The notes beneath the pieces are model-generated. The model was not told the DNA's origin and did no database searches. It saw only the letters and a program-made list of their open reading frames with translations. Below are positions 1-15,505 of a stretch of DNA of 64,000 nt, piece after piece (position 1 is the stretch's first letter; each line of letters begins with the position of its first letter). The translations under genes and the position numbers were made by a program. This DNA is from a virus. The DNA lies in IMG/VR virus record IMGVR_UViG_3300002137_000145, positions 1 to 64,000 of that record. One strand, 5' to 3'.

Positions 1-437
1 AATATAAAATAACTGTTATCTGTTGAAATCAACGGAATGTGTATTTTAAACCAAGTATCGGTATCAGTATGTGTTCTAATTTTAGTACCGGGCGGATGTG
101 CAGCAATACTCATTTGTCTAGCGTTAGGAAATTTCTCTAACAACCATTCTGCAAATCCAAATACTAGAGGAGTATTGCGGTATTCTTTTGTGCGATCTTT
201 GTGTATGTTATATGGTGGGCATGGTTCTGATAAGTTTGCTAAATTACTTTGAATTCCCCATCCGTATACACCTGCAATGTTGTCTTGCAACTCTGCATCG
301 TTAACAGAATTTAAATTATCGTCAGCGTTCCATCGTAGGTGAATAAACTTAGATTCTAATGTGTGAAGATAGTCTAGAGCACGGTCTAGATCAAATTCGA
401 TATCTAACGGTTTAACTAAAAAGTTGTTGTACATCAT
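1..437 (-). CDS. 2OG/Fe(II) dioxygenase-like protein, 3' truncated by window edge
   Basis: The reading frame starts with two consecutive ATGs at 437 and runs off the left edge, giving about 145 residues. Near the truncated end it reads KIRTHTDTDTWFKIHIPL. This is the HxD half of the iron-binding facial triad seen in aspartyl/asparaginyl hydroxylase-like double-stranded beta-helix enzymes; the distal His would lie outside the window. It overlaps the upstream gene at 412-1083 by 26 bases, which suggests translational coupling. The two proteins resemble each other around this motif and may be paralogues. The substrate is unknown. Confidence 0.7.
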   Translation of the reverse strand, partial: MMYNNFLVKPLDIEFDLDRALDYLHTLESKFIHLRWNADDNLNSVNDAELQDNIAGVYGWGIQSNLANLSEPCPPYNIHKDRTKEYRNTPLVFGFAEWLLEKFPNARQMSIAAHPPGTKIRTHTDTDTWFKIHIPLISTDNSYFI

Positions 438-1083
438 CTGTCCAAACTTTACCGTAAAGGTGTATTCTATTGGTCGTGCCTTTGTTTTCTAAACTATGAA
501 CTAGGGTAGTATTCACAAGATATGCCCAACCGGGTTCCATATGAAACTCTTCACCATCTATTACCCAATTACTTTCGTTATTGGTATAGATAGGAATATG
601 TACACGAATTTTATCAGGACTATCTTGATGGTCAATTAATTTAGTGCCGGGGGTATGAATAGTGACTAACCACTTTTTACTACGAACTGGTAATTCTTTA
701 ACGATGTCTAATGCATATCCATCAAAGCATTTACGTGGATTAAGTTTTCCGTTGTCGTTATCTTTATATTCAGGTTTAGCTTGTCCTTGCTCAAACGGTT
801 TAGGTCCAGGTTCATCGCTATTCCAACACAGTGTATAATATGAAGTATCGGGCATTAATCTATGTCCTACAACCCCATTAGGATCTCCGATATCTTCAAT
901 CCAGATGTGCTTGGTATCGCCATAGATAAATTTCCAATCACTATATTTGTTCTCTAGATCAGCATACCATGTGCGTAGCTTATCTAGATCAACTTGAAAC
1001 CAAGGCAATACCTTCCACCCTAAATCTACAATAGGGTATTCTTGTATATAACGTTTAAATCCGGGGATCGGTTTGCCTTCCAT
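412..1083 (-). CDS. 2OG/Fe(II) dioxygenase-like (Asp/Asn hydroxylase-type) protein
   Basis: A 223-residue protein starting at the ATG at 1083 (MEGKPIPGF). A longer in-frame extension to 1233 would lie inside the opposite-strand kinase gene and is rejected. The C-terminal third has the layout of a cupin-type Fe(II)/2-oxoglutarate oxygenase: LIDHQDSPDKIRVHIPI supplies the HxD pair and a conserved Arg, EPGWAYLVNTTLVHSLEN supplies the distal His, and an Arg follows in TNRIHLYG. Family knowledge suggests hydroxylation of a peptide or small molecule; the real substrate is unknown. It overlaps the next gene by 26 bases and belongs to the minus-strand accessory cluster. Confidence 0.75.
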   Translation of the reverse strand: MEGKPIPGFKRYIQEYPIVDLGWKVLPWFQVDLDKLRTWYADLENKYSDWKFIYGDTKHIWIEDIGDPNGVVGHRLMPDTSYYTLCWNSDEPGPKPFEQGQAKPEYKDNDNGKLNPRKCFDGYALDIVKELPVRSKKWLVTIHTPGTKLIDHQDSPDKIRVHIPIYTNNESNWVIDGEEFHMEPGWAYLVNTTLVHSLENKGTTNRIHLYGKVWTDDVQQLFS

Positions 1084-1099
1084 AGTAATACTTATCTGA

Positions 1100-1106
1100 G
1101 TAAATA
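1100..1106 (+). promoter_or_regulatory. Late-type promoter motif GTAAATA
   Basis: GTAAATA ends five bases before the ATG at 1112. It matches the core of the T4 late -10 element (TATAAATA) and recurs before many genes here. The expected start of transcription falls on or next to the start codon, so the kinase mRNA would be nearly leaderless. Confidence 0.45.
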
Positions 1107-1111
1107 TTGCT

Positions 1112-1561
1112 ATGAAGCTAATCAGAGAGAACAAAGAAAAGCAACGTGCTACATATTTCTGTAAGGATCGATATAGAAAAGTTTGGAGAAACACTACTCC
1201 AGCTTGGATTAAAGAACATGTACAATTGCTCAAACAACATGTTCCCGGTTATGTATTAAATTTTGGTGATAACTGGATTGAATACTCTATAATTCCAGGA
1301 GTTCCTGCAAGCACATTATCGCACAGCCCAGAGTTCGTTGATAAGATTTATAAATTTTGTTTAGACAGCATTATTGAAACTAGTCCATATGTTCATGGAG
1401 ATTGGTCATTGAGTAATATACTAGTTGACGGTGATAAACTTAGACTCTGCGATTGGGACAATCTAGGAATATATCCGATGACTGACGTACGAGCTAAACT
1501 GATTTCAGATTTGACAAATGCTTTTGGTACATCATTTCAGCAATATACTCAGCAGTCTTAG
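1112..1561 (+). CDS. Small APH/choline-kinase-like phosphotransferase
   Basis: 149 residues. Residues 95-117 read HGDWSLSNIL followed by RLCDWDN. This is the Brenner catalytic motif (HGDxxxxN) plus the metal-binding D-x-D of aminoglycoside phosphotransferase/choline-kinase fold enzymes. The protein is about half the usual length and has only a short N-lobe (residues 1-60), so it is a minimal kinase or a reduced relative. It lies opposite to its neighbours and its end overlaps the SGNH-like gene by 68 bases. The target is unknown; a sugar or small-molecule kinase acting with the neighbouring cluster is an inference. Confidence 0.7.
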   Translation: MKLIRENKEKQRATYFCKDRYRKVWRNTTPAWIKEHVQLLKQHVPGYVLNFGDNWIEYSIIPGVPASTLSHSPEFVDKIYKFCLDSIIETSPYVHGDWSLSNILVDGDKLRLCDWDNLGIYPMTDVRAKLISDLTNAFGTSFQQYTQQS

Positions 1562-2117
1562 GACCCCAGTGTTCTCCATCGGTACCCCAATCAAACCGCT
1601 CTGTTAAACTACAATCATAAACACCCACTGACTCTGGATGATGGCCAAAATCTACAAACGGTACACCTAGTGCTTTCCACATGATACGCACTGCTCTTCT
1701 ATGAAACGAGTTATGCTGTGCGCTGTTGCCGTTAAATGCCCATTCTAATTTTTTAGGATCTGACCAAGAGCCACAGTTCTCTAGTTGTCCGTGTGTGAAT
1801 AAAGGAAATCTGTCTGCATTAGGCCACATGACAAACACTCCCTTAGGACGTATGTCTTGCTGTATCATTTCTATTGTATTAAAATACTGAATCTCAATGC
1901 TACTGCCACTCACTCCTAAATTGATTACCGGTGCTTGCAGTCTGTGTGACAAATGTTCTGCAATAGTTTGCTGATCGTCAGCAATACCGAGACCGAAACA
2001 AGCACTGCATCCTTGGACAACATAGCAACCGCTCCAATTAATATCATCAAACTCACTAGTACGGTATCCCATAGTGTTTACACGATATCCGGGTACTAGA
2101 TTGGAAATTTTAAGCAT
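1494..2117 (-). CDS. SGNH/GDSL-hydrolase-like protein
   Basis: 207 residues. Block I appears as QGCSACFGLG (residues about 34-43), with Ser or Cys where the GDS nucleophile would be. Block II is INLGVSGSS, block III is like WPNADR, and the C-terminal block V is DGEHWGPKTAEYIAE, which carries the catalytic His. The order and spacing fit an SGNH-fold esterase/acetylhydrolase, although the block I change leaves activity uncertain. A related protein lies at 17836-18519. The 3' end overlaps the opposite-strand kinase by 68 bases. Possible roles are glycan deacylation or a structural SGNH domain; the function is not established. Confidence 0.6.
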   Translation of the reverse strand: MLKISNLVPGYRVNTMGYRTSEFDDINWSGCYVVQGCSACFGLGIADDQQTIAEHLSHRLQAPVINLGVSGSSIEIQYFNTIEMIQQDIRPKGVFVMWPNADRFPLFTHGQLENCGSWSDPKKLEWAFNGNSAQHNSFHRRAVRIMWKALGVPFVDFGHHPESVGVYDCSLTERFDWGTDGEHWGPKTAEYIAEMMYQKHLSNLKSV

Positions 2118-2121
2118 GTGA

Positions 2122-2128
2122 TATTTAT
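2122..2128 (-). promoter_or_regulatory. Late-type promoter motif ATAAATA (minus strand)
   Basis: On the minus strand the sequence reads ATAAATATCAC and then the ATG at 2117, so TAAATA ends four bases before the start codon. It faces away from a second copy of the motif at 2132-2138, giving a compact divergent late-promoter pair. Confidence 0.5.
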
Positions 2129-2131
2129 TAA

Positions 2132-2138
2132 GTAAATA
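2132..2138 (+). promoter_or_regulatory. Late-type promoter motif GTAAATA
   Basis: GTAAATA ends 16 bases before the ATG at 2155, and a weak Shine-Dalgarno-like AGAAGA lies between them. It is the plus-strand half of a divergent pair with 2122-2128. Confidence 0.45.
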
Positions 2139-2154
2139 CTATCAGAAGAATATT

Positions 2155-3375
2155 ATGATGACACCACAGTCCTTTAGCTACCCAACAGTTGGCAACGACG
2201 GTATTATATATGTGCCTCCTTACGGATTAGAGGACACATTAGATTACATGCTGGCTATCAATCCTGTGACTTATGCTATTATAAAAATTCCTCTAGATGT
2301 AAACAATAGTAAAGAGAAATGGACTTTTGGAACTGTAGTAGGAGATAAGATATTTTGGCTTCCTTATGGTGAGGAAAGAGTATTAGTATTTGATACCTAT
2401 CTCAAACAAGTAAGCTACATCAACGTAGCATGGCCCAATGATACTGAGATTATCAAAGGTAAGTACGTTCAAGGTCATGTTTACAATAATAAAATATTTG
2501 CTCTGCCCTATGGCGAGGATCAACCCTTAGACTATGTACTAGTAGTAGATTTGATTAACGAAACTGCCGAATTAAAATATGTTGCTGTTCCCGTTAACGA
2601 TTGTAAGAAATGGCATCAAAGTGTATTAAGAGGCAACAAGATTTATGCTGTACCTCGTGGAGCATATACTCCATTTAATTTTGCTATCGAATATAATTGT
2701 GATGACGGAACTATTAAACTTTCAAATCTTGCTGATCTATATAAAGACCACGCAGATACTACTATGAAGTTTACTACTATTGCCATTGCGGATGATGTAA
2801 TCTATGCGCCACCATATGGATATCATGATGATTTTGATTATATGTTAGTAAACAAAGACGGAGAATGGACTAGTAATCGTACAGGCATTTTAGGAACTAC
2901 TCGAAAGTACTTTACTCACGTTAAAACTAAAAACAATAAATTGTATTTTCCGCCAGCTGGCCACCACCCTGGTTGGAGTAAGTTTTTAATTATAGATCAC
3001 AGCAACATCAAGACCATTGACTTAGACGTCACAACAGAGAGCAAAAAATATTTTGCAGGAATAGAAAACAGTCAAGGTAAAGTTTACTATATTCCTCGAG
3101 GTGGTTGCGTGTGTGACCCAGACGCAGATCTAAAACTCACAGGCGATCTAGCAGAAGTGTTAGTAGTTGACAGCAAGGACGATTCGTATTATACTATAGA
3201 CATTAGTGAATGCTTTACAGACAATACTACTATTGAAAAATACAATGCCTGCTGCATTGTCAACGATATTATATGTGCTATGCCCTACGGTGAAAGTGCA
3301 TCGTTTCAAACTGTTCTAATATTCGATACTATATCTGAAAAAATTATTAAAACATTGGATCTAAATGACTTATAA
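2155..3375 (+). CDS. Propeller-like repeat protein A
   Basis: 406 residues with about eight repeats of roughly 45-55 residues. Each is centred on a hydrophobic strand ending in P-Y-G, P-R-G or P-A-G: IYVPPYG, IFWLPYG, IFALPYG, IYAVPRG, IYAPPYG, LYFPPAG, VYYIPRG, CAMPYG. The PxG is usually followed by a charged loop and a strand such as YVLVVD or TVLIFD. The periodicity suggests a beta-propeller of Kelch/WD type, but I do not recognise the family. There is no signal peptide or membrane segment. It overlaps its tandem paralogue by 11 bases. A receptor- or glycan-binding role is speculative. Confidence 0.65.
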   Translation: MMTPQSFSYPTVGNDGIIYVPPYGLEDTLDYMLAINPVTYAIIKIPLDVNNSKEKWTFGTVVGDKIFWLPYGEERVLVFDTYLKQVSYINVAWPNDTEIIKGKYVQGHVYNNKIFALPYGEDQPLDYVLVVDLINETAELKYVAVPVNDCKKWHQSVLRGNKIYAVPRGAYTPFNFAIEYNCDDGTIKLSNLADLYKDHADTTMKFTTIAIADDVIYAPPYGYHDDFDYMLVNKDGEWTSNRTGILGTTRKYFTHVKTKNNKLYFPPAGHHPGWSKFLIIDHSNIKTIDLDVTTESKKYFAGIENSQGKVYYIPRGGCVCDPDADLKLTGDLAEVLVVDSKDDSYYTIDISECFTDNTTIEKYNACCIVNDIICAMPYGESASFQTVLIFDTISEKIIKTLDLNDL

Positions 3376-4522
3376 ATCTTTTGAAGATTATTATAGAGAA
3401 GCAGAGATTAAACACCTTGTGCTATTCAAGCACAACGGCTGTTTGATTAGTCCGCCGTTTTGTACAGACAGATGCAAAGATTATAGTCGTGTTATGATTT
3501 ACAAGAATGGTAGTTGTAATTGGATTGATGTCGATACTCCACCGGCTACCAGCAAGTACAATTCTATGATCAGTATCGGAAACAGTGTTTTCTTTGCACC
3601 ATACGGAATATGGGATAAGTTTAACACTGTATTAGAAATTAATTTTGATACAGATAAAGAAGTGTATCATACAATTAACAGTACAGCGATGGGCCAATTT
3701 TATAATATGGCCAGTGACGGTAATACTGCATTTTCAGCACCACTTGGGTACGAAGAAGTTAGTTTTAGTTTGTTTATCAAAGACGGGCAAGTAAAACAAA
3801 TACCTATGCCTAATACAGGTGAACTTAAAAAGCACATGGGCACGGTCTGGGCTAATGGATTCTATTGGAGTGCTCCACGTGGTGAAAGCTACGACTACGA
3901 TCAGATATTAAAGTTTAATCCAACCACTGAAGAACTAAGTTTTATTGCCGCTGACTTGCCGAAAGCAAGACGCAAGTACAGCGACTTTATTATTGCAGGA
4001 GATAAGTTATTTTCGTTGCCATTAGGTAGAGATTTTGATTTACATCAAATGCTGATAGTAGATACACTAACCGACAACGTTGAATTGGTTGACCTCAATG
4101 TTCCTAGATTTGTAAAAAAATACAATGCAGGCGTACTGTTAGATGATGTGATTATTGCTCTTCCGTATGGGCATAAAGACAATGGAGATGCTAACTTTGG
4201 CCTAGTATTCAATACTATTACATATAAACATTCTATCTTTGATATTGGGTTAACATTTGGCGGCAAATATAGATTCCGCTCAGGTGTAGAATATAACGGC
4301 GTGGCAGTATTCTTGCCTACAGGAACACCTAACGCTGATATTATTGTAGTAGATAAAACTGGAGCAATTTTGTTTAGGAAAAATCTACTTGAATATATCC
4401 TAGGAAGGCCTATTGTGCATGAAGGTCTTATTCACACTATTGCTTACAATGTTATAACTAAAAAACATTCGGTGTTAACCGTTGATAGCAATTACACTCT
4501 TAACTTTATTGAATTTCTTTAA
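3365..4522 (+). CDS. Propeller-like repeat protein B
   Basis: 385 residues, apparently a paralogue of the preceding gene. Six or seven repeats carry the same strand-P-x-G signature: VFFAPYG, AFSAPLG, WSAPRG, LFSLPLG, IIALPYG, VFLPTG. They are followed by strands such as QMLIVDT and DIIVVDK. Its ATG lies 11 bases inside the end of the preceding gene, so the two are probably co-translated. The 3' end overlaps the opposite-strand gene at 4475-5344 by 48 bases. No catalytic motif is visible. The pair is the only long plus-strand segment in the minus-strand cluster. Confidence 0.65.
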   Translation: MTYKSFEDYYREAEIKHLVLFKHNGCLISPPFCTDRCKDYSRVMIYKNGSCNWIDVDTPPATSKYNSMISIGNSVFFAPYGIWDKFNTVLEINFDTDKEVYHTINSTAMGQFYNMASDGNTAFSAPLGYEEVSFSLFIKDGQVKQIPMPNTGELKKHMGTVWANGFYWSAPRGESYDYDQILKFNPTTEELSFIAADLPKARRKYSDFIIAGDKLFSLPLGRDFDLHQMLIVDTLTDNVELVDLNVPRFVKKYNAGVLLDDVIIALPYGHKDNGDANFGLVFNTITYKHSIFDIGLTFGGKYRFRSGVEYNGVAVFLPTGTPNADIIVVDKTGAILFRKNLLEYILGRPIVHEGLIHTIAYNVITKKHSVLTVDSNYTLNFIEFL

Positions 4523-5344
4523 CTTGTTTACAATTTCAAGTTGAGATAAGTTATCAAGACCGCTTAACTGATGGTTCAGTGTTGCTACTGGAATAAAACC
4601 CAATGCTAAATTTTCGATGCCTAAATTTTTAAAAAACTCAGAGTTATCGTTTACCCATGACTGCACACGTTGGTTGAATTCTTCAAATTCGTTCCTTGGT
4701 CTGTCTGTAAAAAATTTAAGTTTAAAATCTGCACTGTAGTATTTTGCAGGACGTATATTGTGTTCTCCGACAATGTCGTCGTTGTCAATAAACAACTCAA
4801 GTAAATGCTTACCTACTTCACAATAGTTAATATAGATAGTGCCAAACTTCCAATCATATGTAAAATACTGGAAGTCAGCGTCATTTAATTCAAATCGATC
4901 GCAACTAAATGTACAAGTGATTGTTGGCGAAAGATGATTGCTGTTTAATAGCTTTTCGTAGTTATGAATATAAACATTGAATTTAGACACTGCGTCTTGT
5001 ACTTCAGCAGGCGCAGAAGTGTACCACTCTGACGGTGTTAATACTCCGCCTCTAAGTGTTTCGAAAAACTTATGTAGATAATTTAAATCAATAGTTAGAC
5101 TTGCAACAGGTATAGTATTTGGTTGATATCTATTAACTGTGTCTATACAATTATTAATTTCTTGAATATATCTATCAGCATCCCATGGCGAATCAGGCCA
5201 ACCTGTAAATCGCCAATCCTCGAATAAAGGATAACTCTTACCTATTTCCAATGACCATTTGTTAGCAATGCTAGTATTGTTTAAATCAAACATTAAATTG
5301 TAATCGTCGACTCCGTTGGTCAACGTAAGTGTAATATTATTCAT
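4475..5344 (-). CDS. Unknown protein of the radical-SAM cluster
   Basis: 289 residues from the ATG at 5344 (MNNITLTL), which overlaps the stop of the upstream radical-SAM gene. An alternative start at 5368 is less likely because it would overlap further. No family is recognised. The protein is acidic and aromatic-rich, with Trp/Pro motifs near residues 45-55 (WRFTGWPDSPWD). There is no Cys cluster, signal peptide or membrane segment. Strict co-orientation and overlap with a radical-SAM gene suggest a partner or substrate-binding role, which is inference only. Confidence 0.6.
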   Translation of the reverse strand: MNNITLTLTNGVDDYNLMFDLNNTSIANKWSLEIGKSYPLFEDWRFTGWPDSPWDADRYIQEINNCIDTVNRYQPNTIPVASLTIDLNYLHKFFETLRGGVLTPSEWYTSAPAEVQDAVSKFNVYIHNYEKLLNSNHLSPTITCTFSCDRFELNDADFQYFTYDWKFGTIYINYCEVGKHLLELFIDNDDIVGEHNIRPAKYYSADFKLKFFTDRPRNEFEEFNQRVQSWVNDNSEFFKNLGIENLALGFIPVATLNHQLSGLDNLSQLEIVNKLKKFNKVKSVIAING

Positions 5345-6233
5345 TTTCTTTTCTAAGATAAATGTCACTTAGACAACTGCATAAATCTTTACCACAAGTG
5401 AGTGCAGTTTTAGGAAGTGTAAAGTCTTGGATAGTGCCCAACGGACCTTGCCCGCAATCTGCACTAAACACAGATCCTACATAATCAATATTGATCATAT
5501 CTATACCTGCCCAACATTTCCAACCTTTATGCTTGTTTAATCCACGTAGCACTAGCTCATTGGCAGTTATTGGTTCGTCGTCTAACAACAATATTCCTCT
5601 GTGCAATTTCTCGTCATTAAGTGGACGAAAGTACGGCCAGTTTTTAATAAATTCTTTTTGGTCTTCGGTGTAATCAGCAACCTGATTTGTCATATTGATT
5701 TTGTCTAATACCATCTTAGGCCATACTGCAACGCTGCTATTTTCAAATAAGAATTTAGCTACTTCAACTAGTTCGTCAAATTGCTCAGGTACCATCATTA
5801 AGTTTACTGCTACTGGACAGCTAGCAGCATTGGCTATTTCAACAAAGTGCTGCGGAGTAGAGTATTCGGGATGATAGCTTATCATTATTCCCTCGGATAA
5901 CTTTCCTATAGTGGAAAAATATGCTGCATCTCTACTACCGTTTGTTAAGAATGTAAAACTATTACCATACGATTTAACAAGATTAGCAAACTCTAAAAAG
6001 TGCTTCCAATATGTAGGCTCACCGCCGCTTATTCTAAAGCAGATATCCTTGTAAGGCAACTGTTCATTTATCTTTTTAACAAATTTCTCAACATCATTCC
6101 AACTAGGCCAACCGGTACTTCCGTCGTTAAACATACTAGGACAGTACGAGCAACGATAATTGCATTTATTTCCTAGATTCCAAGTAATAAGAAACCAATT
6201 ATGTTTGTTAGAATTCTGGTAGGTTAGTTTCAT
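5337..6233 (-). CDS. Radical SAM enzyme (cluster member 1)
   Basis: 298 residues. CNYRCSYC near residue 23 is the CxxxCxxC motif that binds the SAM-ligating [4Fe-4S] cluster. The SAM-contact motif SGGEPT lies near residue 69 and FLTNGS near 95. A C-terminal set of cysteines (SADCGQG, LTCGKDLCSC) may hold an auxiliary cluster. Homology at this level shows radical chemistry but not the substrate. The start overlaps the stop of the upstream dioxygenase-like gene by four bases (6230-6233). It resembles the enzymes at 9264 and 11928 in length and motif context, so these may be paralogues. Confidence 0.88.
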   Translation of the reverse strand: MKLTYQNSNKHNWFLITWNLGNKCNYRCSYCPSMFNDGSTGWPSWNDVEKFVKKINEQLPYKDICFRISGGEPTYWKHFLEFANLVKSYGNSFTFLTNGSRDAAYFSTIGKLSEGIMISYHPEYSTPQHFVEIANAASCPVAVNLMMVPEQFDELVEVAKFLFENSSVAVWPKMVLDKINMTNQVADYTEDQKEFIKNWPYFRPLNDEKLHRGILLLDDEPITANELVLRGLNKHKGWKCWAGIDMINIDYVGSVFSADCGQGPLGTIQDFTLPKTALTCGKDLCSCLSDIYLRKENE

Positions 6234-6886
6234 TCTGCGATTAGATTATTCACAATTAGAGCACGAGTGCGTTCATTTAATTTAACTGTTAAAATCAATG
6301 CATATAGTCCATTGCTAAAACTAAACACACTGTGATCTAACTGAGTGTTAGTAAAGTACAACCATCCTGCTTCTGGGTAGATTGGTTTGCCATCGAACAT
6401 CTGTACATAGTTCTCCGGACTGCAACGCCCAAACACTGCTAGCATCCTAAAGTACTCAGGACTTACTTCGTGAAAATCTCGGTGAGGAGGAAAGAATCCA
6501 CCTTGATCCACTCTAAGCAAATGTACACGACCTATATCCGGAGCAAACACATCAACGAGATTTTTAATTTCAGGAATACTGTTATACACGTCTGTTGGTG
6601 TGTTAAAGTTTTCTTCTTTCATTTCAACATCGTGATATTTTTGCATATATCCAAAACTATTGAGATGATAATTATCCATAACATCACCAGTGTGACTGGT
6701 CACTGGTAAGCCCCAGCGATTGTTATGCGAATCTTTTTTTACATTATATGGGCACCAATTGTCCTTAAACTGTTCTAGTTGTTGCTCTACACCTACAGGA
6801 CTAAAATGCCATTTGGTTTTTACAAAGTTTCCTAAATGTACAAGACTGTTCCATAGTGCTGCACGTTCTAATTCTTCATGTGTCAT
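6230..6886 (-). CDS. 2OG/Fe(II) dioxygenase-like protein
   Basis: 218 residues. GGFFPPHRDFHE supplies an HxD pair. About 60 residues later EAGWLYFTNTQLDHSVFSF supplies the distal His, and an Arg near the end (NERTRA) could bind a co-substrate. This arrangement fits the Asp/Asn hydroxylase-like cupin fold and parallels the two other dioxygenase-like genes at the left edge. It sits between two radical-SAM genes with four-base overlaps on both sides, so it should be made together with them. The substrate is unknown. Confidence 0.72.
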   Translation of the reverse strand: MTHEELERAALWNSLVHLGNFVKTKWHFSPVGVEQQLEQFKDNWCPYNVKKDSHNNRWGLPVTSHTGDVMDNYHLNSFGYMQKYHDVEMKEENFNTPTDVYNSIPEIKNLVDVFAPDIGRVHLLRVDQGGFFPPHRDFHEVSPEYFRMLAVFGRCSPENYVQMFDGKPIYPEAGWLYFTNTQLDHSVFSFSNGLYALILTVKLNERTRALIVNNLIAE

Positions 6887-8292
6887 AAATTTGCCAACTC
6901 CGGGAATATAACTTTATAGTCTGTTCCTCTAATACTATCCATGTTTTCAGCATATTCTTTAAATGCTGGGACTAAATGTGAATGATCTTCCGCTAGTACG
7001 AATTTTAAAATACTAGCCCATCTGTTCCATCCATTAGGATTTTCCTTCCAGAAGATATCGTCTTGTGTATAATTATCCCATAACCACTGTTTAAAATCTG
7101 CAAACTGGCGTTCAAGCTCTTGCTTGTCCTCCAATGGTAGAATCCTAGGACTTAGATAGGTAGGAATATACAATAAGTGCATGTTAAGTAGACCACCACC
7201 GGCTTCGAATTTTTCAACTTTAAACTTATTAATCTTTTTAAAGTTCTTGCTAATTTTCCATTTAGCAAAATCAATGATATGCTTGATGTTAAAAATTTGT
7301 ACAGCACATGCTATACCAACTTTGATATTGTCAGGAGTGTTATCTAACTTGTCAAGCGCTGATTCGATCTCTTGCCACTTAACTGGATAGCGGATATAAT
7401 GATTTCGATCACCAATTGCATCGATGCTAAATGCAAAACGAACTTCTTTAAAATGACTCCATACCTCAATTATGTCATCACCAACTAATACTCCATTGGA
7501 ATTATATCGCACTGTGATATTTTTGGCGTGTCCCCTACGTATGATTTCTTCTAAGAACTTTTTGTGTTCTTTGATCATTAACGGCTCGCCGCCAGCGAAG
7601 TATAGTTGTCGTATATTAGGAATTTGTTCAAAAATCTCTTCCCATAGCTCTGGTCGTTCGTACCAAGTATTATTAAACTTTGTCTTGTCCCATTGAATCT
7701 GTTGTAATATAATAGGGCTACGAGTCTTTTTAATAAGTTGATCGTGATCTTGTGTCCAACGACTGCTGTCGTGTGGTGTACACATTACACATTTTAAATT
7801 ACAGGTGTGCCCTAATCGTAGATCTAGGTATCGTATAACAGGAGGAACAGTACCGTCTGGGTCTGTTTCATTAACTAATTCAGTTAAGTCTAATCCTTCA
7901 CGATCCCAAAAATACGATTCCCACACACGTTTACTCATTACGCCATTAGATTCTTCTTCGAAACATTTGCTACAGCTTAATGGAATTTTGCCGTCTAGCA
8001 TAGTACGCCTAACATCTTTCATATACTCATTGTTAAACGCACTTAATAGTGAGTCTGTTCCAAAGTTTGCAGGTTGTCCATTTTCTTTTTTAACAAGGCC
8101 TGCATCCATTATTCCCTTAGTAGCTTGACTAGCATTGCTACCACAGCAAAGCCTTGCATCGCCGTTGGGCCTAGTGGCTACATGTATCCACGGCAAAGCG
8201 CAAAAGGTGTTGCTACTGGATACTTCCTCAATTCTTTCCTGCCAAACTTTTAATGTTTGGTTGTTGTGATCTTTCCAGAATGGTTTAGACAT
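6883..8292 (-). CDS. Twitch-domain radical SAM protein
   Basis: 469 residues. The N-terminus (FCALPWIHVATRPNGDARLCC, split around residues 31-51) and CSKCFEEE near residue 109 form a cysteine-rich domain like the N-terminal twitch region of a radical-SAM subfamily known from phages. The core CxxxCxxC is CNLKCVMC near residue 164, followed by YFAGGEPL and RYNSNG. Such proteins usually carry auxiliary Fe-S clusters and act on peptides or nucleotides, but this family has no settled function. It overlaps both neighbours (four bases and eight bases). Confidence 0.87.
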   Translation of the reverse strand: MSKPFWKDHNNQTLKVWQERIEEVSSSNTFCALPWIHVATRPNGDARLCCGSNASQATKGIMDAGLVKKENGQPANFGTDSLLSAFNNEYMKDVRRTMLDGKIPLSCSKCFEEESNGVMSKRVWESYFWDREGLDLTELVNETDPDGTVPPVIRYLDLRLGHTCNLKCVMCTPHDSSRWTQDHDQLIKKTRSPIILQQIQWDKTKFNNTWYERPELWEEIFEQIPNIRQLYFAGGEPLMIKEHKKFLEEIIRRGHAKNITVRYNSNGVLVGDDIIEVWSHFKEVRFAFSIDAIGDRNHYIRYPVKWQEIESALDKLDNTPDNIKVGIACAVQIFNIKHIIDFAKWKISKNFKKINKFKVEKFEAGGGLLNMHLLYIPTYLSPRILPLEDKQELERQFADFKQWLWDNYTQDDIFWKENPNGWNRWASILKFVLAEDHSHLVPAFKEYAENMDSIRGTDYKVIFPELANL

Positions 8293-9271
8293 TAAATTGC
8301 TCCTTGAATTTGTCTATCTTACCGCATTGCTTACTGCATTGTAGTAGTGGGCTAGAAGCCCATTGATCTTCTATCTTTTTAAAATATGCACTGCTAAAAA
8401 TTTGTTCTAGGCTAGTGGTTCTTAATGTTGGATTACTAAATCCCTTGTCCTTAAAATCAACATAGCCGGGGTTAAACGGAGGCACCGCCCTAAAGTCTAA
8501 CCAACAACAGGCAGTGACTTCCCCTTGCGCATTTACATAGATGCTTTGTTCTTTGATAGCCTTGCAGTTTATCTGTGTATTTTCCAGTGGATTATACTTA
8601 ATTAATTTTTCAGATAACGCCTTGCTGTGTATGCTCGGGTGAAGTATATGGCTAGTGGTTCCGTCTTTGTTCAGTACTGTCTTTTCACCATCTTTAAAAC
8701 GAGATGTATGCTTTGCTTGGAACAAAGAAAAACCTAACTCTTGTGCGAGCTTATCACACTCGTTAACCTGATGTGCATTATGTTCAAATACTAACATATG
8801 CCATTCGGCTATTCCTCCAGCTTGAATAAAGGTATAAGCATTATCGATAATTTTATCAAAGTCTGTACCTATACGATATAAGCTGTGGGTATCTTCTAGT
8901 CCGTCAATTCCAAATACAACACGCACCTTTAATTTTGCAAGAGTATACCACCACTTGGAATCTCGGGCGCTGCCGTTGGTATTCATGCTTAACTCTATAC
9001 TAGGATTTACTTCACGTAGGTATCTAAAAATATTCAAGGTGTCTTTAGCTACTATAGGATCACCGGTATTGCCACACATGTATAGTCTACCTAACTGTTG
9101 AATAAACTCAACAGGAAACCAATGCTTAAATTGCTTCAGTGTAATTTCATCTAATTCTAACCACGGGTTTTCTATTCCGCCATGTAAATTACGCACACAC
9201 ATAGGACAACTAGCCTGACATTTGCTGGTAATCTCAAGATGTACTGTTTTGATATTTTCTATATTATACAT
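8285..9271 (-). CDS. Radical SAM enzyme with SPASM-like C-terminus
   Basis: 328 residues. CQASCPMC near residue 18 is the CxxxCxxC motif, followed by a glycine-rich region (MCGNTGDPI) and SMNTNGS. The C-terminal part (INCKAIKEQ, VTACCWLDF, LLQCSKQCGK) has the Cys pattern of a SPASM or twitch domain, as in peptide-modifying and sugar-modifying radical-SAM enzymes. It overlaps both neighbouring radical-SAM genes by eight bases. Modification of a peptide or polysaccharide unit is plausible but unproven. Confidence 0.87.
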   Translation of the reverse strand: MYNIENIKTVHLEITSKCQASCPMCVRNLHGGIENPWLELDEITLKQFKHWFPVEFIQQLGRLYMCGNTGDPIVAKDTLNIFRYLREVNPSIELSMNTNGSARDSKWWYTLAKLKVRVVFGIDGLEDTHSLYRIGTDFDKIIDNAYTFIQAGGIAEWHMLVFEHNAHQVNECDKLAQELGFSLFQAKHTSRFKDGEKTVLNKDGTTSHILHPSIHSKALSEKLIKYNPLENTQINCKAIKEQSIYVNAQGEVTACCWLDFRAVPPFNPGYVDFKDKGFSNPTLRTTSLEQIFSSAYFKKIEDQWASSPLLQCSKQCGKIDKFKEQFNV

Positions 9272-10280
9272 TTAATTTACGTTTCGTGATTCGAACTTCT
9301 GATTTGCAGCTACACGTTATCATTGAACACCTAATAGGTTTAATTACGCTAGCAGTGAACTTTTCAACAAAATCTACATCATGTATTTTAAAATAGTTGT
9401 TGCCATATATTTTAAGTTCGCCACATGCACCTTGTAGTGTGCCGTCACGTTGTACGTTGACTCTGTCAACACCTAGATTACATTCCCAACCATAAAAGTT
9501 ATTCAGCTTCTTACTGATAATAGCGAAAGATGTGTATGGTGTGTTAGTACCATTATCCCATGTAATCGTTGCCTGTGTTTTATCTTCTTGTATGTTGTTA
9601 AGAGATTTCATCTTGTCTAGGTATTCTTTTGGAGGAAGTTTTTTTATTTTATTTTCTAGATAAGAAAGTTGTTCAGTGGTGTAATCTTGTATAATACCTA
9701 CAGCAGCACCAGTAGATGTGACCAGTGTTGTTGTTTTAACCAGCCACGGTGTTGGATGTGCAACTAACTCATCCACTAACTGAGTGCATTTGTCCCACGC
9801 TAATGGATCCATGCAAACACTAACTCCACCAATTGTTGTTTCATTGCTGTAAATTAAGTCCAACAACTCTTTTATATGTGACGTATTAATGAATTCGTGG
9901 TGGGCACTAATTGCAATATCGTTAAAATATTTAGAATACTCATGCCACCATCGCATGGTCCTCGACCCATTTGTGTCAACTGAAACTCGAATATCGTGTC
10001 GTTCTTTTAAAAACTTTACAAATTCACCTAGCTTAGGCCACAGTGTAGGTTCGCCACCAGTAAGTTCGATGCTGATTATTTTTTTGTTAAACTGCGTTTT
10101 GTAAATCGTAATTAAGTGATCGAAGTTTTTACAGATTAAATCAAAGTCTGGCCATGTTGTTGTTCCTGCATGAGAATCAGGCCAGCAGTAATTGCACTTA
10201 TAATTACATACATTAGTAAACTCATAACGTATGCTGAGATAATTGTCAAAGTCTGGATTTGTTATAGCTACGGGGTTCAT
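9264..10280 (-). CDS. Radical SAM enzyme (cluster member 4)
   Basis: 338 residues. CNYKCNYCWP near residue 25 is the CxxxCxxC motif, ELTGGEPTLWP is the SAM-binding GGE motif, and SVDTNGSR follows. C-terminal cysteines (LQGACGE, CSMITCSCKS) could bind an auxiliary cluster. The motif neighbourhood CNYxCxYCWP is shared with the gene at 11928, which suggests duplication inside the cluster. It overlaps the next gene by eight bases and the previous one by four. The substrate is unknown. Confidence 0.87.
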   Translation of the reverse strand: MNPVAITNPDFDNYLSIRYEFTNVCNYKCNYCWPDSHAGTTTWPDFDLICKNFDHLITIYKTQFNKKIISIELTGGEPTLWPKLGEFVKFLKERHDIRVSVDTNGSRTMRWWHEYSKYFNDIAISAHHEFINTSHIKELLDLIYSNETTIGGVSVCMDPLAWDKCTQLVDELVAHPTPWLVKTTTLVTSTGAAVGIIQDYTTEQLSYLENKIKKLPPKEYLDKMKSLNNIQEDKTQATITWDNGTNTPYTSFAIISKKLNNFYGWECNLGVDRVNVQRDGTLQGACGELKIYGNNYFKIHDVDFVEKFTASVIKPIRCSMITCSCKSEVRITKRKLNV

Positions 10281-11347
10281 AAAGACTCTAGTCCTTCGTA
10301 GATTCCAGCTAGCTTTTTAAAATTATTTGTGTTCTTATCGTTAGATAACAATCTTAATAACTGAGGAGCATTGCGTTCAATTAATAATTTATGTATTCCT
10401 GCATCAAGTATCTGTGTTCTCAGTATAGGATAGCTTAAATTTAAAACAAGATTTATTAAATTTAAATTATCGTAAGGAGACAGGGTAATAGTATTTCCTA
10501 AATGCCAGTGTTGGAAGTCGTTGCTGTTTCTAATAACAACATGTTCTTTTAATTCTGCTTCACTGTGGAATTTTATTTGCTTTGCTGCTTCCAATGTGCT
10601 AGCGAACTTTTCTTTTAGAAAATATCCACTGTGATAATACGGTTGCTGTTTACATACTTCGACTATATCTTCATTAAAGTAGTTTAACACGATGCAAGCA
10701 TCATAGGGATTCCGCATCAGCATTTCGTCGCCATTGGCACCTGATAAAAGAACTTCAGGAGTTCTCCAATGCTGTAGGCTTTTATATGCCCAAAACTGTT
10801 TTAATTTAGATCGATTATGACACATAAAATAATCTAAATCAAAATGTTCACAATTTACTAATTCATACGGTATCTTATTTTTAACAACATAGGCTGCTAA
10901 CAGCAGCGTATCAACTCCGCCGGTTAAGAACAACTTAACGGGCTTATCTGTTTCAAAATTTAAAATAGTGTTTTCAATAGTAGTGTCTATCTGATCAATA
11001 ATTTCGCTATCTGTTAAATTCAACTTTTTAAATTTTGAAGATGGCTTATCTATTCGTATAATGGAGTTTGCAGTGACCGACACTTCACCTACGAAAAAAT
11101 CTCCTGATAGTAAATTCGACACAACAAATTTTTCAGCATCAATAAACATAGGAAAGGTTTGGCGTTCACCAGAGTCAACGTGTACACTGTCATCACTGTA
11201 TGAAATCGCACAGCTTTTTCCCGGATAACCTTTGCTAATATAATTTTCATTAATCGTCCATCCGTTATCAAAGTCAACACAAAACTCTCCCCATTTAATA
11301 TGGTTAGGGAAGTCGTTGTTTATGTGCTTACTAATCGAGAAAAACAT
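10277..11347 (-). CDS. Asparagine-synthetase-like PP-loop amidotransferase/ligase
   Basis: 356 residues. Near residue 145, FLTGGVDTLLLA matches the ATP-pyrophosphatase PP-loop (SGGxDS type) of asparagine synthetase B and beta-lactam-synthetase-like enzymes. LSGANGDEMLMRNP near residue 205 matches the second conserved motif (SGxGxDE). The N-terminal 130 residues resemble a reduced glutaminase-type domain without the usual Cys at position 2, so ammonia release from glutamine is unlikely. Such proteins adenylate a carboxylate and form an amide. The gene abuts the methyltransferase-like gene and overlaps a radical-SAM gene by four bases, which points to a shared pathway. Confidence 0.78.
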   Translation of the reverse strand: MFFSISKHINNDFPNHIKWGEFCVDFDNGWTINENYISKGYPGKSCAISYSDDSVHVDSGERQTFPMFIDAEKFVVSNLLSGDFFVGEVSVTANSIIRIDKPSSKFKKLNLTDSEIIDQIDTTIENTILNFETDKPVKLFLTGGVDTLLLAAYVVKNKIPYELVNCEHFDLDYFMCHNRSKLKQFWAYKSLQHWRTPEVLLSGANGDEMLMRNPYDACIVLNYFNEDIVEVCKQQPYYHSGYFLKEKFASTLEAAKQIKFHSEAELKEHVVIRNSNDFQHWHLGNTITLSPYDNLNLINLVLNLSYPILRTQILDAGIHKLLIERNAPQLLRLLSNDKNTNNFKKLAGIYEGLESL

Positions 11348-11937
11348 TATTGCTTACCTATAATCATCCAACGAGTGTACAGTGGCAATTCTAATTCGCC
11401 TGCCCATACAACATTGATGCCGCATTGTGATTTAAATTCTTCTAGTGTTGCTGCTGTGCGGATATGCTCCGGAATATCATAATTATTACTTTGTAATACT
11501 AGTAAGCTGTCTGCAGGCATTCCGCTTTTCCACAAGTCAAATTGATCTTGTGCAATGTGTTCGCAACTAGTGTTAATTACAACATTAGCATCACTGCGTA
11601 TCTCGCACATGTCTGCGGTTATTGCACGAAATCTACCAACTATTTCTTCTTGCTTGTTCATCATAGTAGCAATAGATTCGCATGTTGGGTCGATGTCTAC
11701 ACTGCGGATATTTTTTATGGGAATTGAACTCTGGAACAACATACTAGCTAATACACCAACCCAACCTCCGTGGATGTCTATACTAATAAAAGTATTAACA
11801 TTTTTTCTTAGGTTGGTAATTAGCCACTCTTTGCTTTTAAGTTGACCACTCCAAAATGCATCCATTGTGCGTATTGGATCTTCACTTTGCCGGATTGCCT
11901 GCATCCAGAAGTGTAAGTGTTCTGTATCTATTTGCAT
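11347..11937 (-). CDS. Class I SAM-dependent methyltransferase-like protein
   Basis: 196 residues. Residues about 50-105 have the Rossmann layout of a class I methyltransferase: FISIDIHGGWVG for the glycine-rich SAM loop, RSVDIDPTC ending strand 2 with acidic residues, ITADMCEI, then VVINTSCEHI. The motifs are divergent, so SAM binding is likely but the methyl acceptor is unknown. It lies between a radical-SAM gene (10-base overlap) and the asparagine-synthetase-like gene (one-base contact). Confidence 0.65.
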   Translation of the reverse strand: MQIDTEHLHFWMQAIRQSEDPIRTMDAFWSGQLKSKEWLITNLRKNVNTFISIDIHGGWVGVLASMLFQSSIPIKNIRSVDIDPTCESIATMMNKQEEIVGRFRAITADMCEIRSDANVVINTSCEHIAQDQFDLWKSGMPADSLLVLQSNNYDIPEHIRTAATLEEFKSQCGINVVWAGELELPLYTRWMIIGKQ

Positions 11938-12908
11938 TTTGGTATCTTGCTATCGGCTGAACTAACACAACTAGGTGTAATGCAGCGTTGGGGTTTCTTA
12001 AACAATTCGAAACTTTCTAAAGTTCCTAATGGTTGGTCGTGACAACTGTACGATCTCTTTACTTCGTTGCTTCTTATTATAACACTTTGATAGCCACTAT
12101 TGCAAGACCAATCTTGGAAATTATTAAATCCAAATGCATTAAATCTTTCCGCTTGGTCGAACAGATATTCGTTGTCGTCCGCATCGTATAATGCTACTTG
12201 ATAGACTTCTTCTCCATTTGATCGTTGGGGGAATCCTGTTTGCATTCTGTGGATTTGGTCTTCTGTATATCCATCAACAATCCTGGAAGCAGTCGGGTCG
12301 GACTGGGGTTTGAGAGTAATATTAATACCTCGGGCGGCAAATCGTCCCATACGCTCGTAAAGCTCTTCAAACATTTCCGGAACCATAACTTGATTGATTG
12401 TGACATGAACTCTCTCATACATTAATTGCAGGCACTTATCGCCAAACTCTTGTTCTTTAGCAAACTCTGAATGATAGCTTGCCGTTATACTTCGACGTTG
12501 CAGCATATCTGTGTTAGCGCACCAAGTCTTCCACCACTTGCTACCTGGACTTAGGTTAGTGGTCATGTGTACACTTTGGTAAGAACTCTCTACATCGTCT
12601 TGCAAATATTTAACTAGATCATTTAGCTGTTTATATGCAGTAGGTTCACCGCCACTAAAGCTCCAATGGAACTGATTGAACCCATTTAGTTTGGCTTGGC
12701 GTTTAATTTCGTCTATGGTGTGTTGGTATACTTCTAATTTTTCATGATCAACTTTATCTGATCTAGCATACGGCCAGCAATAACTACAATTATAGTTGCA
12801 GAATCGTCCTAGTATCCAGCTAATAGAGAACAACGGTTTGGACAACATTGTTCGCTGTCCAAATCTAACTATTTTTTGAAATGGTATTTCTTGAAAATTG
12901 GCTATCAT
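11928..12908 (-). CDS. Radical SAM enzyme, first gene of the minus-strand cluster
   Basis: 326 residues. CNYNCSYCWPYA near residue 37 is the CxxxCxxC motif, with FSGGEPTAYK and HMTTNLS following. The C-terminal cysteines (WSCNSG, RSYSCHDQ, RCITPSCVSS) may bind auxiliary Fe-S. This is the promoter-proximal gene of a nearly gap-free run of nine minus-strand genes ending near 4475. A late-type TAAATA lies 10 bases upstream of its ATG. The resemblance to the 9264 gene suggests paralogy. Confidence 0.88.
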   Translation of the reverse strand: MIANFQEIPFQKIVRFGQRTMLSKPLFSISWILGRFCNYNCSYCWPYARSDKVDHEKLEVYQHTIDEIKRQAKLNGFNQFHWSFSGGEPTAYKQLNDLVKYLQDDVESSYQSVHMTTNLSPGSKWWKTWCANTDMLQRRSITASYHSEFAKEQEFGDKCLQLMYERVHVTINQVMVPEMFEELYERMGRFAARGINITLKPQSDPTASRIVDGYTEDQIHRMQTGFPQRSNGEEVYQVALYDADDNEYLFDQAERFNAFGFNNFQDWSCNSGYQSVIIRSNEVKRSYSCHDQPLGTLESFELFKKPQRCITPSCVSSADSKIPKCK

Positions 12909-12917
12909 AATATGCTA

Positions 12918-12924
12918 ATATTTA
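12918..12924 (-). promoter_or_regulatory. Possible late-type promoter of the radical-SAM operon
   Basis: The minus strand reads GGTTAAATATTAG, 10 bases before the ATG at 12908. TAAATA agrees with the late motif, but the preceding base pattern (TT rather than AT) is weaker. It is the only promoter-like sequence I see for the nine-gene minus-strand run. Confidence 0.35.
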
Positions 12925-12936
12925 ACCACTAAGGGG

Positions 12937-12971: not shown

Positions 12972-13084
12972 GTGGCCGTGAGTGGAATAGGCAGACCTCC
13001 CGCTAGTCCCATAGACTAGATTGGGGATGGAGCAATGAGTATAACTCGCAGCTTTTGTAGGTTCGAACCCTACCGGCCATACCA
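12972..13084 (+). tRNA. Abnormal 113-base tRNA-like gene, identity unresolved
   Basis: The outer parts are canonical. A seven-pair acceptor stem (12972-12978 with 13074-13080, first pair G-T) is followed by an encoded ACCA (13081-13084). The T arm is perfect (stem 13057-13061/13069-13073, loop TTCGAAC). The D arm AGTGGAATAGGCAGACCT resembles leucine-type class II tRNAs. The middle is about 20-25 bases too long. One hairpin has a six-pair stem (13003-13008/13014-13019, loop CCATA), and a smaller one at 13037-13047 looks like a class II variable arm. If 13003-13019 were the anticodon arm, the anticodon would be CAT, but position 33 would be C. It could be an insertion in the anticodon arm, a decayed gene or an unusual phage tRNA. 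Confidence 0.6.
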
Positions 13085-13742: not shown

Positions 13743-14453
13743 ATGAGAGTACGTATTGTAGGCTACACAGTAGCAGATCCAGAGTTTGTAGCAGACTGTA
13801 AAGCAGAAGCACTGGCCAAGGGTAAGACAGAACCAGAGTTTGCAGATATCCAGGATTTGATTGCGTTCTGTGCAAGGGTGAGTAATCCTGCTAACCAAAT
13901 GAATGAAGAAACCAGTGCTAAACTTATCAAGTATTTGATCAAGCACAGTCACTGGAGCCCGCTTGAAATGGTTAATGCCACACTTGAGATTGACACTACT
14001 CGTGACATTGCACATCAGATTGTGCGTCACCGTAGTTTTGCCTTCCAAGAGTTTAGTCAGCGTTATGCTAATCCAGAAGACATGGGCGATATGTTTGAGT
14101 ATTCGGAAGCACGACTGCAGGATGAAAAGAATCGCCAGAACTCAATCGAAACTGAAGACCGTCAGTTGGCTACAGATTGGCTTCATGCACAGATGCGAGT
14201 AGCACATACCTGCAAGAAGGAATATGATTGGGCTATCAGCAAGGGCATTGCCAAGGAACAGGCACGTAAAGTTTTGCCAGAAGGTATTACAAAAACTCGA
14301 TTGTATATGCAAGGTAGTTTGCGCAGCTGGTTGCACTATATCGAATTACGTAGTGAAAATGGTACACAGAAAGAACACATGGCTATTGCGGTTGCCTGTG
14401 CAGAAATTATTGCTAAAATCTTTCCGCTAATGAATGAACTAAAGGATATCTAA
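13743..14453 (+). CDS. thyX: Flavin-dependent thymidylate synthase ThyX
   Basis: 236 residues. RHRSFAFQEFSQRY at residues 95-108 is the ThyX signature (RHRxxSxxxxSxRY type), with one shift in the Ser position. ThyX methylates dUMP to dTMP using FAD, NAD(P)H and methylenetetrahydrofolate, so it supplies dTTP for phage DNA synthesis. It pairs functionally with the dCMP deaminase at 47388. The start is two bases after the previous stop and the stop abuts the BI-1-like gene, indicating an operon. Confidence 0.93.
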   Translation: MRVRIVGYTVADPEFVADCKAEALAKGKTEPEFADIQDLIAFCARVSNPANQMNEETSAKLIKYLIKHSHWSPLEMVNATLEIDTTRDIAHQIVRHRSFAFQEFSQRYANPEDMGDMFEYSEARLQDEKNRQNSIETEDRQLATDWLHAQMRVAHTCKKEYDWAISKGIAKEQARKVLPEGITKTRLYMQGSLRSWLHYIELRSENGTQKEHMAIAVACAEIIAKIFPLMNELKDI

Positions 14454-15125
14454 ATGTACGCAGCAACTTATAAATCAACTGATCAAATTATCAGTGCAAT
14501 GAATCGTGTGTATGGACACATGTCGTTGGCAGTCATTACATCAATGATTGTTAGTTATTTTGTAGGAACTAGTCCTGAACTCCTACAGTTCTTTTTTACA
14601 GGAGCGATGAAATGGATTGTTATTTTTGCTCCACTTGTTGCTATCCTAGGTATGAGTTTTGCTGCAAGTAGTTTTAGCAAAAGCGGATTGCAGATATTCC
14701 TGCAGGTGTTTGCTGCTCTAATGGGATTGAGCTTTGCTACAATCTTTGCAGTCTATACTATGGGCAGTATCTTTACAGCCTTTATGGGTGCAGGAGTGTT
14801 GTTTGGCACTATGAGCTTGTATGGGTATTTTACTAAGAAAGACCTAACGTCAATGGGTCAACTGATGTTTGTAGGATTGATTGCAATTATTATTGCAAGC
14901 GTAGTTAACATCTTTATTGGCAGTACAGTAATGCAGATGGTTATCAGTGCTATTGCTATTATTGTGTTCTTGGGATTAACTGCATACGACACACAAAAGA
15001 TCCGCGAAATTGTAAGTGTTGGCGGCGACACAGGTCGAGAAGAAGTAATGGGTGCTCTAACACTGTACCTAGACTTTATCAACTTGTTCATTCACTTGCT
15101 ACAACTATTTGGAAATCGTAAGTGA
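14454..15125 (+). CDS. Bax inhibitor-1/YccA family membrane protein
   Basis: 223 residues with about seven hydrophobic segments and the family's C-terminal signature region (FLGLTAYDTQKIRE near residue 175, ALTLYLDFINLFIHLLQLF at the end). In bacteria these are inner-membrane proteins linked to Ca2+ leak or FtsH regulation. In phages the role is unknown. The stop overlaps the next gene's GTG start (GTGA). Confidence 0.88.
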   Translation: MYAATYKSTDQIISAMNRVYGHMSLAVITSMIVSYFVGTSPELLQFFFTGAMKWIVIFAPLVAILGMSFAASSFSKSGLQIFLQVFAALMGLSFATIFAVYTMGSIFTAFMGAGVLFGTMSLYGYFTKKDLTSMGQLMFVGLIAIIIASVVNIFIGSTVMQMVISAIAIIVFLGLTAYDTQKIREIVSVGGDTGREEVMGALTLYLDFINLFIHLLQLFGNRK

Positions 15126-15505
15126 AAGAAAAAGACAACAAGTTCTGTGAGAATTACGAAGTACGCATTCTCAATGACCAAAAGAGAAGGGCAAGGTATC
15201 ATCGGCCCTTCTACTTTACCGAGCCAGATAATGCTTCTATTATAAGAGACCAAGAAGTTCAGTTTGAAACTGAAGCAGTTCTTACTGTTGAAATTCCGGA
15301 AGGAAGATTCCGTTCTTTGATAGAAATGGAAGATCGATTCTTTAATCGTCAGCGTCACGAGCAGTATCAAGTTGGTATGTTTGATATGCTGATGGAAAAA
15401 GAGCGAGAAGAAGCATATATTAGACACACAAATGCAGCAGCGCAAAAAGCATACGAACAGTACAGCATGATGTTGCATCTAGCAGGATACACCAAAAAAC
15501 TATGA
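15122..15505 (+). CDS. Conserved hypothetical protein
   Basis: 127 residues starting at a GTG overlapping the BI-1 stop and ending in an ATGA overlap with kdsB. It is a highly charged soluble protein with a long C-terminal helix (residues 80-120) rich in Glu, Arg, Gln and Met. No motif is recognised; the coupling implies co-expression with its neighbours. Confidence 0.65.
   Translation: MKEKDNKFCENYEVRILNDQKRRARYHRPFYFTEPDNASIIRDQEVQFETEAVLTVEIPEGRFRSLIEMEDRFFNRQRHEQYQVGMFDMLMEKEREEAYIRHTNAAAQKAYEQYSMMLHLAGYTKKL

Follow-up and report, generated by a model that had tools for sequence, protein, structure and literature searches.

Gene content of the island

The window analysed here comprises 64,000 of the 66,965 bases of viral record IMGVR_UViG_3300002137_000145, and carries at one end an island of genes for radical S-adenosylmethionine (rSAM) enzymes. 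It belongs to a T4-related phage, with a clamp loader 55.6% identical to that of PA5oct-like Pseudomonas jumbo phages, and also encodes an endolysin and tail-fibre-like proteins, the genes for the latter lying at 21–42 kilobases (kb). Nine minus-strand genes run from 12908 to 4475 in the order RS5, MT, ASN, RS4, RS3, RS2, DIOX_C, RS1, UNK7 (Table 1), with successive overlaps of 10, 1, 4, 8, 8, 4, 4 and 8 bases. The remainder of the region holds the plus-strand genes BPROP1 and BPROP2, KIN, an SGNH-like gene and two Asp/Asn-hydroxylase-like genes. An earlier sequence-only reading of this DNA had proposed a co-transcribed, phage-encoded enzyme pathway; its open reading frames (ORFs) were all recovered at their positions and its overlaps of 1–10 bases held on recounting. 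It had missed BPROP1 and BPROP2 (members of the unit in relatives), KIN and the tRNA-like RNA described below.

All five proteins RS1–RS5 exceed the Pfam PF04055 cut-off and have the CxxxCxxC motif, as that reading had stated, and a PF04055 search of the 66,965-base record returned exactly five matches. RS2 is a full-length N_Twi_rSAM protein (NF033640, 390 bits versus a cut-off of 170); the other four fall below this cut-off. The viperin family (NF038283) was rejected for the rSAM proteins, the best score being that of RS4 (56.9 bits versus a cut-off of 180, N-terminal part only). No curated family matches MT, ASN, DIOX_C or UNK7, and the labels of the first three are motif-based. Thus the proposed methyltransferase MT retains its motifs with no match in Pfam, and ASN has no match in Pfam, NCBIfam or the PDB. 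The asparagine-synthetase-like motif pair of ASN, TGGVDT and SGANGDEM, is kept in its relatives (by eye); its AlphaFold model is poor (predicted local distance difference test, pLDDT, 58) and on its motifs it is a candidate member of PF00733. Among the three proposed dioxygenases, DIOX_B is well matched by Asp_Arg_Hydrox and probably starts at 1083, DIOX_A at the window edge gives a weak match and DIOX_C has no Pfam match. The SGNH-like protein does match PF00657, yet under the cut-off.

UNK7 gave a confident AlphaFold model (pLDDT 85.4, predicted template modelling score, pTM, 0.84), for which Foldseek against the PDB found no significant fold match (best E 0.43). Further members of the family sit between RS1-like and RS2-like genes of other phages, and one is encoded in a Halobacteriovoraceae genome (L112). 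BPROP1 and BPROP2 stand in tandem, opposite in orientation to the operon, with P-x-G about every 48 residues and no Pfam match; the repeats indicate that both are probably beta-propellers.

Table 1. Features of the island and further copies of the RNA.
Feature	Position	Strand	Description	Evidence
tRNA-like RNA	12972..13084	+	anticodon-less, type-II, tRNA-Leu-like, encoded CCA; island border, divergent from RS5	sequence; covariance model
TTAAATA box	12919..12925	-	T4-type late promoter-like, 17 nucleotides (nt) upstream of RS5	motif
RS5	11928..12908	-	radical-SAM, C-terminal 4-Cys twitch-like part	PF04055 3.1e-12
MT	11347..11937	-	class I methyltransferase-like core protein	motifs only
ASN	10277..11347	-	PP-loop, asparagine-synthetase-like amide synthetase	motifs TGGVDT, SGANGDEM
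RS4	9264..10280	-	radical-SAM	PF04055 6.9e-15
RS3	8285..9271	-	radical-SAM/SPASM, core	PF04055 3.8e-7; SPASM 4.3e-5
RS2	6883..8292	-	twitch-domain radical-SAM, core	NF033640 390 bits
DIOX_C	6230..6886	-	HxD...H dioxygenase-like	motif only
RS1	5337..6233	-	radical-SAM	PF04055 5e-12
UNK7	4475..5344	-	no assigned family	model pLDDT 85.4, pTM 0.84
BPROP2	3365..4522	+	repeat protein, probable beta-propeller	~48-residue repeats with P-x-G
BPROP1	2155..3375	+	repeat protein, probable 8-bladed beta-propeller	eight P-x-G repeats
SGNH	1494..2117	-	SGNH-like hydrolase	PF00657 6.1e-4, under cut-off
KIN	1112..1561	+	APH/RIO-kinase-like, often present	PF01163 3.8e-5; PF01636 6.2e-5
DIOX_B	412..1083	-	Asp/Asn-hydroxylase-like 2-oxoglutarate oxygenase	PF05118 (Asp_Arg_Hydrox) 4.5e-11
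DIOX_A	3..437	-	second related oxygenase, truncated at window edge	PF05118 0.0082, weak
RNA copies elsewhere	L221:8924-9019; L205:857-956; L015:4464-4570; G002:C1:5418-5518; G001:C1:151362-151469

A conserved core with mosaic neighbours

A scan with RS2 found 73 viral loci, 66 of which have MT homologues, 64–68 RS3-like and 71 RS1/4/5-like genes; in the reciprocal MT scan, the best 80 of at least ~600 stretches contained RS5 in 71 cases, RS3 in 65 and RS2 in 57. These counts lean to near relatives, the matches having been found via the query's own conserved stretches, and most of the records compared are fragments. Each of eight records of 74–353 kb holds between 7 and 25 rSAM matches, most of them in a single block, and RS5 is present in all eight (at the contig end and cut off in one). 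The conserved core of the island is RS5 and MT, usually accompanied by RS3 and RS2, and RS5 is its most conserved enzyme. Synteny in many contigs and the co-occurrence in the RS2 and MT scans bear out the proposal that the pathway recurs in other phages. A 76,827-base viral record (G008) has 25 rSAM domain matches, which is extremely dense for a virus. The island also exists in small versions (L174, L175, L177, L221), which comprise RS5, MT and a Tes/TrsS-like rSAM protein (C38), between flanks with few window-type genes.

The arrangement of the window, RS3-RS2-DIOX_C-RS1 facing BPROP2-BPROP1, was found in ~10 other contigs. BPROP1 and BPROP2 keep their place beside RS1 and DIOX_C in these relatives and are limited to this subgroup (6 of the 73 RS2 loci). 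In one relative (L007), RS2 is 91% identical and the adjoining RS3 62%. Because neighbouring genes differ in this way in identity to the same relative, the comparison suggests that they are exchanged as cassettes.

Purifying selection on the island genes is strong, with ratios of non-synonymous to synonymous substitution (dN/dS) of 0.03–0.13, computed where synonymous sites are unsaturated. Intact frames, purifying selection and synteny rule out an artefact or decaying genes. Scattered or broken genes, which the sequence-only reading had named as grounds for dropping its proposal, were not seen; the genes co-occur.

Late promoter-like motifs

The core of the T4 late promoter is TATAAATA, which NTAAATA resembles. 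NTAAATA lies 11–23 nt ahead of RS5, the SGNH-like gene, KIN and BPROP1, which head transcription units, against a chance expectation of about 0.019 per 60 nt. Within the main operon, no gene downstream of RS5 is preceded by it (0/8). It also precedes 9 of the 46 other window genes, including the long tail-fibre-like gene at 29744. Among distinct upstream regions of RS5, 48 of 68 carry the motif, and in nearly all of these its distance from the start is 7 or 17 nt. The operon is probably expressed late, a timing that we infer from the sequence motif alone.

Counterparts in Bdellovibrionota

Close relatives in bacterial genome contigs are mostly from Bdellovibrionota; the few others resemble phage contigs that were placed in bacterial or archaeal bins. 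RS5, RS3 and RS2 are adjacent in Bdellovibrionota chromosomes, often with MT and a protein here named C29, and their identities to the window proteins are 50–57% over the full length (RS5), 43–49% (RS2), ~36–44% (RS3) and ~29–40% (MT). C29 may be a glycosyltransferase, a label taken from a weak Pfam hint (0.075). Sequence searches of the PDB with C29, MT, RS2, RS5 and ASN gave generic rSAM-core or chance matches only. The RS5-RS3-RS2 locus is patchy, occurring in 17 of 291 Bdellovibrionota genomes. One such triad locus holds two family-2 glycosyltransferases, and some others consist of RS2-RS5-RS3 almost alone among housekeeping genes. Compared with the phage island, the bacterial loci are chromosomal and have other tailoring genes, and the RNA at the island border was not found there. 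At one locus a zinc-finger, possibly transposase-like gene (by eye; L085:11638-12519) sits between RS2 and RS3; it is absent in the similar locus L084.

An anticodon-less tRNA-like RNA at the island border

The RNA encoded between RS5 and the next gene has the acceptor, D and T arms of a tRNA, a long variable arm, A73 and an encoded CCA. A hairpin of variable length and loop takes the place of the anticodon arm among relatives (loops include UUCG, CUUG, UUUG and GNRA-type); in the window copy a small CCAUA loop caps a lengthened arm. The RNA thus lacks the usual anticodon arm with its 7-nt loop, and neither ARAGORN nor Rfam called the window copy. For some relatives ARAGORN returned inconsistent isotypes (Pro, Gln, Arg, Gly, Ser). 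Pairing is kept in 92.9% of cells and 18 pairs have two-sided changes; the acceptor and T stems are 100% paired with covariation. The covariation score is 0.378, versus 0.130 for shuffled and ≤0.075 for slid alignments. A covariance model built from 36 sequences, the window copy among them, scores that copy at 87.4 bits. Most phage elements score 85–114 bits, two divergent ones 58–59, and other matches, ordinary tRNAs included, ≤44.

Many T4-like phages have the RNA at the border of the island, and two giant-phage records carry it as well. In a pattern scan independent of RS5, 113 elements had sufficient left flank, and RS5 adjoins the RNA in 91 of them. Two records carry the RNA without RS5 (G312, 345 kb; G313, 199 kb) and in two with RS5 the RNA was not found (G004, 170 kb; G006, 124 kb), all four possibly incomplete. 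An obligatory link between RNA and RS5 was rejected on these whole-record searches, with the proviso that records may be fragments. Because of the records that have one without the other, we take the RNA to mark the island border; it may or may not have a part in the pathway.

The RNA might act as a carrier or decoy, might have a priming or regulatory function, or might serve as a landmark for recombination. Its conservation and strong covariation, and its place beside RS5, also in giant phages with RS5, would suit a working part of the rSAM pathway, namely a carrier or donor charged with an amino acid. Escherichia coli leucyl-tRNA synthetase does not need the anticodon, and among the true tRNAs compared the D-arm of the RNA is nearest to phage tRNA-Leu. 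A host synthetase that ignores the anticodon would then charge the head-to-head RNA, and the amino acid carried or donated by it would be rebuilt by the phage enzymes. We consider this very doubtful: the records with RNA or RS5 singly speak against it, as do the bacterial triad genomes, where no match exceeds 44.4 bits and the scores are those of ordinary tRNAs. If true, the phage would have a biosynthetic pathway served by a carrier RNA dedicated to it. No matching anticodon-less phage tRNA was found in the open-licence papers searched, and the RNA, present at >100 viral sites, appears to be undescribed in these sources.

What the island may make

Between the rSAM genes of relatives we found 68 ORF families without CxxxCxxC. 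Those named by Pfam or NCBIfam include a DegT aminotransferase (8.5e-96), a UDP-sugar dehydrogenase, GT8, a carbamoyltransferase and several 2-oxoglutarate oxygenases. An epimerase/4,6-dehydratase (LegB-like, 126 bits, below cut-off) also occurs there, as do a protein in which two 'sporadic carbohydrate cluster' domains are fused (below cut-offs) and a sporadic-carbohydrate-cluster oxygenase (71.5 bits versus a cut-off of 150). The cultured Pelagibacter phage Mosig (MT647606) has, beside VrlC, an island that encodes an MT relative, an ArnB-like aminotransferase, a carbamoyltransferase, Asp_Arg_Hydrox, an epimerase and three MoaA-like proteins. Because of the sugar-type enzymes in the islands of relatives and of Mosig, and of the glycosyltransferases at the Bdellovibrionota locus, we favour the tailoring of a glycan as the likeliest role, in agreement with one of the targets guessed earlier. 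We give it about an even chance, because the window's own operon contains no sugar gene.

We propose that this probably late operon of a large T4-related phage specifies one form of a modular tailoring pathway. In it RS5 and MT, in most cases together with RS3 and RS2, would perform the radical and methylation steps that the versions have in common, acting on a scaffold that they share. Exchangeable cassettes of other rSAM enzymes, 2-oxoglutarate oxygenases, PP-loop amide synthetases and SGNH proteins would vary the product, and those of relatives would add sugar-nucleotide enzymes and glycosyltransferases. The product would most likely be an unusual carbohydrate, attached late in infection to the virion or to the surface of the host. 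There it could alter receptor recognition, leading to superinfection exclusion or escape of progeny, or could decorate tail or capsid.

Several points weigh against a carbohydrate product. A number of the sugar-family matches fall under curated cut-offs, and the operon of the window has neither a glycosyltransferase nor a sugar-nucleotide enzyme. The nearest sugar-type gene is a cytidylyltransferase (15502-16164) on the strand opposite to the operon; it is KdsB-like (PF02348, 8.6e-27) and lies in a flank (13743-16164) that also holds thyX and a gene for a Bax-inhibitor-like membrane protein (by eye). Peptides are frequent substrates of the SPASM/twitch rSAM and Asp/Asn-hydroxylase families, and the nearly solitary bacterial RS2-RS5-RS3 loci fit a cofactor or small molecule too.

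The rSAM enzymes and oxygenases might instead modify a ribosomal peptide whose gene lies elsewhere, or a protein of the phage such as BPROP1, BPROP2 or one of the tail. The combination of rSAM/SPASM proteins with an asparagine-synthetase-like protein and Asp/Asn-hydroxylase-like oxygenases is typical of peptide modification, and the BPROP genes hold their position beside RS1 and DIOX_C. Their restriction to the window-type subgroup means, however, that they are not the common substrate of the core. Small-ORF clustering picked up small genes of the phage core, antisense frames and RNA artefacts, and inside the islands it showed no conserved short precursor-like ORF. A ribosomally synthesized and post-translationally modified peptide with its precursor beside the enzymes was therefore rejected, as the sequence-only reading had argued. 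Overall we judge a peptide or protein substrate rather unlikely.

A small-molecule or cofactor pathway, serving auxiliary metabolism or yielding a signalling compound or an antibiotic-like product, is our next choice and also unlikely. It would account for the near stand-alone bacterial loci and for the amidinotransferase-like and pyridoxal phosphate (PLP) aldolase-like genes seen by eye in relatives, but the late-type boxes and strong cassette turnover suit variation of a surface or virion better than core metabolism.

Hypermodification of DNA or nucleotides, another target guessed earlier, is highly improbable: RS4, RS5 and RS1 do match the N-terminal part of the profiles of viperin and MoaA, which are nucleotide-acting rSAM enzymes, and ThyX is encoded nearby, but these matches are partial and far under the cut-offs (56.9 of 180 bits), the unit showed no gene for a hydroxymethylase or for DNA modification, the promoter boxes look late and the islands vary gene by gene.

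Comparison with known systems

Phage modules with several rSAM genes are already known, from Campylobacter phages (2010) and from pelagimyophages (2020), and the island described here is a further version; the earlier description of it as an undescribed kind of system does not hold (PMC2853527; PMC7029224; PMC5332604). Campylobacter phages CP220 and CPt10 encode 11 and 12 rSAM proteins and have a module of five rSAM genes that is interchangeable and to which no function was given (PMC2853527). The CP220, CPt10 and CP21 modules resemble the window in belonging to T4-related phages, in their five-rSAM clusters and in module exchange (PMC2853527); the window likewise combines a T4-related phage, five rSAM genes and mosaic identities among relatives. 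RS5, however, is only 21.8% identical to its CP21 counterpart and MT has no match in the Campylobacter modules. The glycine amidinotransferase of the Campylobacter module is absent from window positions 1-12908; judged by eye, some relatives encode a protein that looks similar.

In pelagimyophages, rSAM cassettes lie in the host recognition cluster, where glycosyltransferases are thought to change the O-chain; no function was given for the rSAM proteins (PMC7029224). This cluster and the Mosig island are like that of the window in having rSAM cassettes with tail-fibre genes nearby and in being hypervariable. The cluster lies between VrlC and gp14 and holds tail fibres and glycosyltransferases. 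In the window the tail-fibre-like genes are at 21–42 kb, VrlC and gp14 were not identified and the unit has no glycosyltransferase. Mosig has an MT relative (25.8% identical) and no match to RS5, and isolated phages in general gave only remote matches to RS5 and MT. A T4-like environmental phage, TARA_ERS488813_N000010, has 12 rSAM genes, treated as iron-sulphur proteins with no function given for the set (PMC5332604); what it shares with the phage described here is many such genes in one T4-like genome.

Multi-rSAM modules of T4-like phages have been known since 2010 without a function, and a conserved core, RS5-MT-RS3-RS2, is now defined here. This core, its Bdellovibrionota relatives and the late promoter-like motif make the question of function testable with few enzymes.

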